This document shows positions 19,024 through 21,695 of a stretch of DNA of 35,105 nt, in pieces. Numbering within the stretch: position 1 is the stretch's first letter; each line of letters opens with the position of its first letter. The DNA comes from Candidatus Halobonum tyrrellensis G22. GTDB lineage: Archaea; Halobacteriota; Halobacteria; Halobacteriales; Haloferacaceae. A program made the position numbers and the translations under genes. The stretch spans positions 1-35,105 of the forward strand of contig NZ_ASGZ01000058.1 in assembly GCF_000495475.1 (NCBI RefSeq), given 5' to 3'. A model generated the notes under the pieces. That model made no database searches. It was not told the DNA's origin and was given only the letters and a program-made list of their open reading frames with translations.

Positions 19024-20448
19024 CTACTCGTGTCGTCGGTGGAGCCGCCACCGCTGGAGGAGCATGTCGGTCCCGCCGTCCCCCTCCCCGTCGTCCGGAC
19101 CGTCGACGAACTCGACGGTCACCCGCTTGTCGCCGTCGACCGCGTAGTACGTCGGGTCGGTCGGGTCGTCGGTGACCTCGGGGAACAGCGTGAGCGACCG
19201 GTCGCCCAGCCGGCCCTCCACCTCGACCGAGAGGGTCGTCCCCTCGCGCTCGACGGTCGCGGTCTGGACGCCCCGGTAGGACTCGTACTCGCCGACGACG
19301 GCGTCGGCCGCGCGTTCGAGCGCGAGCCGACCCACCGCCTCGTGGGGGTCGCGGCCGTCGAGTATCGACAGCACCGCGTGGCCCGCGACCGTCGGGTGGT
19401 GGTCGGGGGCGGTGTTGCACGCGACGACGACGCCCACCTCGGCGTCGGTCAGCCAGCCGAGGAACGCGGTGGTCGTCCCCATCATCCCGCCGTGGCCGAC
19501 GAGCGTGTCGCCGCAGAACGGCTGGACCGACAGCCCGTAGCCGTACTCGCGTTCGGTGCCGCCGACCGTCTCGTAGCGGGTCACCCGCGGCGTCGTCATC
19601 TCTTCGACGGCCTCCGCGGGGAGCACCCGCTCGCCGTCGAACGCGCCGCCGCCCATCAACATCCGGAGGTGGCGGGACGTCTCGGTGACCGAACTCACCA
19701 GCCCGCCGGGGGCGTCCATCGCCTCGGCGAAGCCGAGGCTCCCCTCCTCCCAGCCGTCGTCCGTCTCGTAGTAGGCGGTCATGCGGTCGTCGTCCGCGGC
19801 GACGGCGTCGGGGTCGAACCCCGACCGCTCCATCGACAGCGGGTCGAACACGTGCTCGCGGAGGTAGTCGGGGAAGTCGGTGCCCGTCACCTCCTCGATG
19901 ACCTTTCCGAGCAGCGTGAACCCGGTGTTGTAGTAGAAGAAGTGGTCGGCGGCGGTGTAGCGCTCGTCGGCGCTGTCGGCGACGTGCCGGCGGAAGTCGG
20001 CGTCGCTCGTCAGCGGGACGTTGGCGTCGCCGATGTCGGTCAGCCGGGTCACCAGCGCCGAGAGGTTCCCGTCGCTGGGCATCCCCGACGTGTGGCTCAG
20101 GAGTTCGGCGAGCGTCACCGGGTCGCCCGGCGCGTCGTCGAGGTGGGGGAGGTAGTCGCTCACCGGGTCCGACAGCGAGAGGTCGCCCGCGGCCGCCCGC
20201 TGGAGCGTCGCCGTCGCCACGAACGACTTCGTACACGAGCCGATACCGTACAGCGTGTCGGGCGTCGCGGGGCGGTCGTCCGCCAGGTCGCGCGCGCCGA
20301 ACCCCTCGGCGTAGCGCAGGTCCGCCCCCTCGACGACGGCGACGCTCGCGCCCGGCACGCCGTCGTCGCTCATCCACTCGGTCACGTACGACTCGACCCG
20401 GCGCCGGACGTCCGGGTCGAGTCCGTCGGGGTCGCTACTGGTTGACAC
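19024..20448 (-). CDS. Serine hydrolase, class C beta-lactamase/S12 type
   Basis: The 474-residue protein carries the three active-site motifs of the penicillin-recognising fold: SxxK as Ser71-Cys-Thr-Lys74 in GIGSCTKSF, YxN as Tyr172-Tyr-Asn174 in FYYNTGFTLLG, and HGG at 319-321 in VGHGGMMG. A C-terminal beta domain (about 385-474) follows. In archaea without peptidoglycan such enzymes are more likely peptidases or esterases than beta-lactamases. No secretion signal is evident. The start is GTG 20448, supported by a box CTATTTGT (20471-20478, minus) about 27 bases upstream. Confidence 0.88.
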   Translation of the reverse strand: MSTSSDPDGLDPDVRRRVESYVTEWMSDDGVPGASVAVVEGADLRYAEGFGARDLADDRPATPDTLYGIGSCTKSFVATATLQRAAAGDLSLSDPVSDYLPHLDDAPGDPVTLAELLSHTSGMPSDGNLSALVTRLTDIGDANVPLTSDADFRRHVADSADERYTAADHFFYYNTGFTLLGKVIEEVTGTDFPDYLREHVFDPLSMERSGFDPDAVAADDDRMTAYYETDDGWEEGSLGFAEAMDAPGGLVSSVTETSRHLRMLMGGGAFDGERVLPAEAVEEMTTPRVTRYETVGGTEREYGYGLSVQPFCGDTLVGHGGMMGTTTAFLGWLTDAEVGVVVACNTAPDHHPTVAGHAVLSILDGRDPHEAVGRLALERAADAVVGEYESYRGVQTATVEREGTTLSVEVEGRLGDRSLTLFPEVTDDPTDPTYYAVDGDKRVTVEFVDGPDDGEGDGGTDMLLQRWRLHRRHE

Positions 20449-20789: not shown

Positions 20790-21695
20790 ATGACGATCGG
20801 GTTCATCGGCGGCAGCGGTATCTACGAGGCGCTCCCGCTGTCGAACACGCGCACCGAGGACGTGACCACGCCGTTCGGCGACCCCAGCGCGCCCCTCGAA
20901 ATCGGCGAGTTCGGCGACAGCGAGGCGCGAAGCGCCTCTGGCAGTCGGACGGAGTCCGACGACACCGGCCGGGAGGTCGTCTTCCTCCCGCGGCACGGTC
21001 CCGACCACGGCCGGTCGCCGACCGACCTGCCGTACAGGGCGAACATCTACGCGCTGAAGCAGGCGGGCGTCGAGTACGTCCTCGCGAGCAACGCGGTCGG
21101 GTCGCTCCGGGAGGACCTCCCGCCGCGGACGCTCGTCGTCCCCGACCAGATATACGACCGGACGAAGCGGCGCGACCTCTCGTTTTACGGCGACGGGGTG
21201 GTCGTCCACCAGGGGTTCGCGCGGCCGTACTCGCCGGCTCTCGCCGCCCACCTCGCCGACGCCGCCCGCGAGGCGACCGACGCCGACGTGAACGAGGGCG
21301 GCACGTACGTCTGCATCGAGGGACCGCAGTTCTCGACGGAGGCGGAGTCGGAGTTCTACCGGTCGCAGGGGTGGGACGTCGTCGGGATGACCGCGATCCC
21401 CGAGGCCAAACTCGCCCGCGAGGCGGAGATGGCGTACGCCACGCTGGCGGGCGTCACCGACTACGACGTCTGGAAGGCCGACAGCGAGGTGAGCCTCGGG
21501 GAGGTGCTCGACAACGCCGCCGCCAACGAGACCGCGATCAAAGAGACCGTCGAACGCGCCATCGAGACGTTCCCGGACGACTTGGAGTGTGAGGCGCACG
21601 GCTCGCTGGAGGGGACGATCAACACCCCGACCGAGGCGATACCCGACGAGACCAGAGCGCGGCTGGAGCCGCTGATCGGCGACTACCTCGACTGA
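20790..21695 (+). CDS. mtnP: S-methyl-5'-thioadenosine phosphorylase
   Basis: Cleaves methylthioadenosine (from polyamine and SAM metabolism) with phosphate, giving adenine and methylthioribose-1-phosphate; cytoplasmic. The 301-residue protein has GFIGGSGIYEALP at the start, the phosphate-site LPRHGPDHGRSPTDLPYRAN (67-86), YVLASNAVGSLRE, and CIEGPQFSTEAESEFYRSQG followed by VVGMTAIPEAKLAREAEM. Residues 44-58 (SEARSASGSRTESDD) interrupt a segment that is normally continuous; their 45 bases form two tandem perfect hairpins. A CTTTAG box at 20754-20759 fits the start. The stop overlaps the convergent receiver-PAS gene by 13 bases. Confidence 0.93.
   Translation: MTIGFIGGSGIYEALPLSNTRTEDVTTPFGDPSAPLEIGEFGDSEARSASGSRTESDDTGREVVFLPRHGPDHGRSPTDLPYRANIYALKQAGVEYVLASNAVGSLREDLPPRTLVVPDQIYDRTKRRDLSFYGDGVVVHQGFARPYSPALAAHLADAAREATDADVNEGGTYVCIEGPQFSTEAESEFYRSQGWDVVGMTAIPEAKLAREAEMAYATLAGVTDYDVWKADSEVSLGEVLDNAAANETAIKETVERAIETFPDDLECEAHGSLEGTINTPTEAIPDETRARLEPLIGDYLD
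20919..20963 (+). repeat. In-frame double-hairpin insertion inside mtnP
   Basis: 45 bases (15 codons) between two GAC codons. They contain GAGGCGC-GAA-GCGCCTC (20922-20938) and GTCGGAC-GGA-GTCCGAC (20944-20960), each a perfect 7-bp stem with a 3-base loop. The frame is kept, and the added residues fall before the LPRHG motif, probably in a surface loop. The form recalls short palindromic elements that spread within genes. Absence of this stretch in related enzymes is from memory, not an alignment. Confidence 0.55.

Follow-up and report, generated by a model that had tools for sequence, protein, structure and literature searches.

A 45-bp hairpin insertion in the mtnP gene of Candidatus Halobonum tyrrellensis G22 and its probable place in a dispersed family of coding palindromic elements of haloarchaea

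The window analysed here, a stretch of 35,105 nucleotides from Candidatus Halobonum tyrrellensis G22, carries at positions 20790 to 21695 of the plus strand the gene (mtnP) for S-methyl-5'-thioadenosine phosphorylase (MTAP). The ORF is intact and 301 codons long, and its product, which matches Pfam PF01048 (E 2.1e-42) and the NCBIfam MTAP models and thus belongs to the PNP/MTAP family, shares 84 % identity with its nearest relative (G016). Residues 44-58 are encoded by a segment of 45 bp, or 15 codons (20919 to 20963, plus strand; peptide SEARSASGSRTESDD), and, as a sequence-only reading of this DNA had claimed, the segment contains, in frame, two tandem perfect hairpins, each with a 7-bp stem and a 3-nt loop. 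The first (GAGGCGC-GAA-GCGCCTC) lies at 20922 to 20938 and the second (GTCGGAC-GGA-GTCCGAC) at 20944 to 20960, on either side of the 5-nt spacer TGGCA (20939 to 20943), all on the plus strand. A terminal GAC (20961 to 20963, plus strand) closes the segment, and another GAC, an Asp codon at 20916 to 20918 of the same strand, flanks it on the left; the latter is the presumed target and is already present in the empty site of two homologous loci (L003 and L032). The insert is preceded by CGAC and also ends in CGAC, which leaves a 4-nt uncertainty in the position of its left boundary. When folded as RNA, the 45-nt segment is better than 200 of 200 shuffles (z -3.2), and when folded as DNA it is equalled by one of 200 (z -3.5). 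The AlphaFold model of the mtnP product is poor (mean pLDDT 57.9) and sets the insert, with low confidence, between strands 36-41 and 61-67; the insert is missing from solved MTAP structures. Elsewhere in the window, a perfect 8-bp hairpin with a GAA loop (GCCTCGGCGAAGCCGAGGC, 19721-19739) occurs in a neighbouring gene region, where both a second hairpin and a match to the covariance model described below are absent, and this hairpin is probably due to chance.

Among 109 homologous mtnP loci of haloarchaea, both named and unnamed, a small number of which are duplicates of one record retrieved twice, none has residues at the position of the insert. At the junction, G016 reads GGC GAC/ACC GGC and G22 reads GGC GAC, the 45 bp, and then ACC GGC, so that the two differ by exactly 45 bp. 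Judged by these alignments, the segment is a clean 15-codon insertion that is specific to the G22 lineage, which bears out the earlier proposal of an in-frame insertion into the phosphorylase gene. The same step of +45 bp separates empty and filled sites of close relatives in each of four genes, i.e. those for MTAP, LeuC, DnaK and formate dehydrogenase, the empty sites being GGC GAC/ACC in MTAP, GAG GAC/GAC CCC in LeuC, GAG GAC/GGG GAG in formate dehydrogenase and GAG ATC/GGC GAC in DnaK. The inserts in LeuC and DnaK are patchily present within a genus, and that in LeuC is missing from five same-genus genomes. In Halorubrum, mtnP homologues (e.g. L066, L077, L078, L089 and L092) carry an acidic loop of variable length, of the GG-DGD... 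type, before the motif VVKGGTYVC; the hairpin element was not seen there, and the loop looks like ordinary halophile loop growth.

Within the G22 genome, of which 1.15 Mb of stretches were scanned in addition to genome searches, hairpins as such are a poor signal. Triloop hairpins with 7-bp stems number 122 in 363 kb, which is near the Markov expectation for this GC-rich genome, and whole-genome triloop statistics were rejected as a signal for being near chance; close pairs of hairpins are mildly enriched (52 versus 28-48 expected in 1.15 Mb). With single hairpins so frequent, a comparative test was required, and the non-random nature of the window segment rests on the empty homologous loci, the exact 45-bp step and the related copies elsewhere. 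Perfect hairpins with a GAC triloop, a separate matter, were found 25 times against 8.8 expected in the same 1.15 Mb, which is among the largest excesses of any loop. The sequence-only reading had also proposed a search for further genomic copies. By plain sequence such a search looks negative, as no second copy of the 39-nt core exists within 3 mismatches; a near-exact search of this kind is misleading, however, because the stems vary between copies, and searches by architecture did return in-frame relatives, both in G22 and across the order. Thus, instead of homologues that all carry the residues and a genome free of other copies, the comparison gave 0 of 109 loci and a family. Two patterns were discarded along the way: the half-hairpin pattern GCGCGAAGCGCCTCTGG with 3 mismatches showed no excess over its reversed control, and a relaxed pattern with 2 mismatches gave more than 100 matches against 14 in the reversed control, mostly lacking the second stem and therefore not counted. 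A scan of the 1.15 Mb for neighbouring hairpins disclosed a second place with the same order of loops, and the fixed pattern GCGCGAAGCGC-N11-GGACGGAGTCC returned the window copy, that second place and a third copy with 3 mismatches. In all, seven copies were identified in the G22 genome, three of them strong and four weaker. Besides the copy in mtnP, the strong copies lie in an S9 peptidase gene (C8:40478-40524, minus strand; peptide SDARSASTERTESAE) and in an archaeal RecJ-type nuclease gene (C8:7614-7660, plus strand; peptide ADGRSPSASGTESRP), and the three have in common a loop-to-loop distance of 22 nt and a codon phase while differing in their stems. The weaker copies are located at C5:12631 and C20:76971 and within a sulfatase-family gene (C8:72717) and a PLP-enzyme gene, the latter copy having a single hairpin (C8:93339). 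Of the seven best G22 matches, four (7614, 40478, 72717 and 93339) fall on a single 119-kb contig, C8, that makes up about 3 % of the genome, and this clustering suggests local spread or a special region.

Beyond G22, the family has a wide distribution in haloarchaea. The pattern CGAAGC-N13-GGACGGAGTCC, with at most 1 mismatch, occurs in 39 of 170 genomes of the family Haloferacaceae, while the reversed control gave about 3 matches in all. A covariance model (R1) built from 29 copies, which align without gaps (alignment A1) and share the fixed spacer length, finds matches in 145 of 167 genomes of the family at E<=0.01 and in 145 of 243 genomes of the whole order at E<=1e-4; the window copy scores 70.4 bits (E 8.1e-12), a value to be read in light of its belonging to the training set. 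In GC-rich DNA the E-values overstate significance once they exceed about 0.01, and the roughly 8 matches between 0.1 and 1 in the 1.15 Mb look like background. As read from the aligned copies, the architecture is a 7-bp stem with a GAA-type triloop, a 5-nt spacer, a 7-bp stem with a GNA triloop and a terminal GAC, 45 bp in total, with the two loops 22 nt apart. Some genomes hold dozens of copies, at least 36 in the richest, and 400 kb of the genome G099 contain 15 matches with E below 0.002. The host genes identified by profile encode Hsp70/DnaK, an amidohydrolase, a HerA-like ATPase, an AMP-binding enzyme and a short-chain dehydrogenase, as well as a formate dehydrogenase-like enzyme, dihydroorotate dehydrogenase, precorrin-3B methyltransferase, phosphoenolpyruvate synthase, a RecJ-type nuclease and an aldehyde dehydrogenase; two further hosts, for which the sequence itself gave the name, are LeuC and a CBS-domain protein. 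An Rfam search with the element gave no match at E<=1. Related arrangements were seen outside genes. G099 has two similar intergenic arrays of head-to-tail hairpin pairs (L291:13190-13560 and L294:4140-4510), in which GAC closes each pair and the stems are longer and of a different composition. In G178:C1 (37927, 155853, 847839, 962030, 2528386, 2803811 and others), near-identical, REP-like copies form a related subfamily, CGGGCGAAGCCCGGTTGCCAGAGGGACGNAGTCCC, of which the three examined copies (L214, L225 and L319) are all non-coding.

The stems of the family vary in sequence and yet remain paired. Across the 29-copy alignment, 96.8 % of the stem pairs are standard versus 79.8 % in shuffles, and slid controls are 31-41 % paired; in both hairpins pairing is kept by double changes, with 57 double-changed cells as against 16.9 in shuffles. 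Comparable evidence comes from copies at one and the same site, since paired (compensatory) changes distinguish those in the genes for the S9 peptidase, LeuC and the HerA-like ATPase. The S9 peptidase insert, for example, is common to G22 and genus g17 at the same loop of the protein, and its arms are GAT..ATC in one case and GAG..CTC in the other. Such differences imply either that pairing was kept after insertion or that the sites were struck again. At both the S9 peptidase and the LeuC sites the inserts are shared across genera, and some copies are old and vertically inherited. In the HerA-like ATPase (L206, L207, L314, L315 and L324) the element sits at one site in several haloarchaeal families with different, paired stems, a situation that may represent an ancient insertion that they share or repeated hits at a hot spot. 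Template switching, a known cause of stem homogenization, can change an arm in one step (PMC8794818, PMC8604942), and the stem pairing may be kept by a template switch between the arms or, alternatively, by selection on the hairpin.

A further hallmark of the family is its strict orientation within genes. Of 68 non-redundant top-scoring copies, 63 are genic, and every one of these 63 is on the sense strand in phase 0. Frames were assigned by third-position GC and by hand, the longest-ORF choice giving wrong frames in GC-rich DNA, and the phase of L221, L268, L286, L307, L308, L311 and L318 was settled by reading the ORFs, with L311 the least certain. Merging same-site copies leaves about 46 distinct host sites; given that 34 % of GAC sites on either strand of called G22 genes are sense phase 0, the chance of 46 out of 46 is about 1e-21. 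Stop codons do not explain the locking, because the consensus, by inspection, is open in all six frames. Choosing copies by score favours those near the consensus, and an unselected sample is less extreme: the 15 matches in the 400 kb of G099 comprise 8 in sense phase 0, 6 intergenic and 1 that an automatic caller placed as antisense. The translated peptide is hydrophilic, with 30 % Ser and 14 % Arg and also Gly, Ala, Glu and Asp. We infer that selection keeps only those insertions that add a harmless, flexible loop, and a frame-specific mechanism of insertion may be an alternative source of the locking. The boundaries are likewise non-random. GAC flanks 44 of the 63 coding copies on the left, compared with a GAC share of 7.2 % among codons, and ends 50 of the 63 on the right. 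As the right-hand GAC is retained where the left flank is ATC, CTC, TAC or TTC (e.g. L230, L317, L320, L322 and L325), it is to be assigned to the element itself, with the left GAC as a pre-existing target, and a classical GAC target-site duplication is ruled out as the general rule. In DnaK the insertion follows ATC rather than GAC, and GAC is therefore not obligatory.

Taken together, the segment in mtnP is very probably a single copy of a coding palindromic element that is non-autonomous and dispersed among haloarchaea, copied at GAC and filtered by selection; we infer its mobility from the dispersal and the empty sites. In such a scheme, a single-stranded copy of the element would be joined at GAC to give a new copy, either through template switching during replication, with GAC serving as a 3-4 nt microhomology on both sides, or through a putative recombinase that acts on the hairpins. 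Selection would remove insertions that fall in other phases or on the opposite strand, given that only sense phase 0 would yield a soluble, flexible loop, and the selfish hairpin would in this way add a 15-residue linker rich in Ser, Gly, Arg, Glu and Asp to the host protein. Stem pairing could be kept partly by intra-hairpin template-switch correction, in which one arm takes over a mutation of the other. If the segment does belong to such a family, we tentatively lean towards GAC-microhomology copying as the means of spread, consider an enzyme acting in trans to be nearly as likely, and regard other routes as rather doubtful. No enzyme would be needed for GAC-anchored template switching to yield such products, and it would also yield the GAC-joined head-to-tail arrays of G099. 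The more ambitious proposal of an order-wide, strand- and phase-locked 45-bp family that is copied at GAC codons by a dedicated hairpin-recognizing enzyme or by a defined template-switch process is plausible and falls somewhat short of probable.

The most serious competitor is a REP-like element that is moved in trans by a Y1 tyrosine transposase, whether RAYT or IS200/IS605 TnpA, with single-stranded DNA cut beside the hairpins and inserted 3' of a short target without target duplication. In IS200/IS605 elements hairpins lie by the ends and insertion occurs at a short target, and the layout of the haloarchaeal element agrees, having hairpins near both ends, insertion 3' of a GAC-like target and a GAC end of its own. 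The DnaK site, which lacks a clear target duplication, and the intergenic copies and hairpin arrays of G099 and G178 fit as well. However, a search for Y1_Tnp (PF01797) gave 0 matches in the 99.6 %-complete G22 genome and none in the copy-rich G013, G164, G033, G007, G095 and G112, whereas the same settings detected the domain in 65 of 99 genomes; moreover, the strong copies are mostly inside genes rather than extragenic. A Y1 transposase as a necessary partner is thus not supported, and we judge this explanation unlikely. Less credible still, indeed improbable, is that the inserts are kept for a useful peptide or for RNA hairpins (as a regulatory RNA, a processing signal or a salt-adapted surface loop) and that this benefit drives their spread. 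Conservation of pairing inside coding sequence, the sites common to several genera (S9 peptidase and LeuC) and the hydrophilic, Ser-rich peptide with its Gly, Glu and Asp would suit such a role, but the patchy presence in LeuC and DnaK within a genus, the unrelated functions of the hosts, an Arg content that differs from the usual acidic halophile loops and the lack of an Rfam match do not. Ordinary lineage-specific loop expansion with DNA that is palindromic by chance, for which one might cite the other MTAP loops that vary in length among Halorubrum and the abundance of single hairpins of this size, is refuted by the family search, in which copies from unrelated genes and genera shared the architecture, the spacer length and the codon phase while their stems showed compensatory changes, and it has next to no likelihood.

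Read as one copy of a dispersed coding palindromic family, the mtnP insert has implications beyond its own gene. Coding palindromic elements have so far been regarded as an oddity of Rickettsia, Wolbachia and a single methanogen. With its many copies, its closely related alleles with and without the insert and its strict locking of strand and phase, a free-living and partly genetically tractable archaeal order allows tests of several open questions: the way in which these elements move, their selfish or useful nature, and the gain of new segments by proteins. The family also accounts for puzzling stretches of 15 extra residues in DnaK, LeuC, MTAP and other enzymes of haloarchaea, and stem covariation in coding DNA without an evident RNA function is a caution for RNA calls that are based on covariation.

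Among known systems, the closest in behaviour are the Rickettsia palindromic elements (RPEs; Ogata et al. 2000/2002) and the Wolbachia palindromic elements, i.e. short in-frame palindromic repeats in unrelated conserved genes, where they are tolerated as additional stretches of the protein, with several families per lineage (PMC10969869, PMC2996958). Like RPEs, the haloarchaeal element is inserted in frame in unrelated protein-coding genes whose homologues lack it. RPEs, however, are about 150 bp long and reside in AT-rich intracellular bacteria, whereas the haloarchaeal element is 45 bp long, resides in GC-rich free-living archaea and is spread over most of an archaeal order; and in place of one long palindrome of ~100-150 bp it has two separate 7-bp triloop hairpins and a GAC end. 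Size and architecture set it apart, with taxon and base composition differing too, so that the likening to RPEs made in the sequence-only reading stands for the behaviour and falls for actual identity. That reading had further held coding use in archaea to be notable, and here the freely accessible literature searched yielded no haloarchaeal description of such an element, while coding palindromes reported in Methanocaldococcus jannaschii (Suyama et al. 2005, as cited in PMC2996958) are, as far as that citation goes, a direct archaeal precedent, their host being a thermophilic methanogen with an AT-rich genome. With the generic coding palindromic class of M. jannaschii and Wolbachia the element shares dispersed copies within proteins, its translation being predicted from the intact frames. 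REPs and BIMEs are also short, dispersed, imperfect palindromes that are sometimes paired or arrayed, as are the intergenic copies in G099 and G178. REPs, though, by definition seldom overlap coding regions (PMC12306157), whereas most top copies of the haloarchaeal element are coding (with the G099 sample mixed), and, unlike REP/RAYT systems, its presence does not need a Y1 enzyme. In PARCELs, palindromic DNA is similarly translated, but these are tandem 75-nt repeats linked to membrane proteins and to genes of unknown function (PMC2996958) rather than single 45-bp inserts in soluble housekeeping enzymes. A MITE of a DDE transposon would have an end-to-end inverted repeat and a target-site duplication; the element has neither, and its DnaK site shares at most 1 bp. 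The haloarchaeal element therefore works like an RPE but is a separate family, distinguished by its breadth, its locking of strand and phase, its preference for GAC and its covarying stems.
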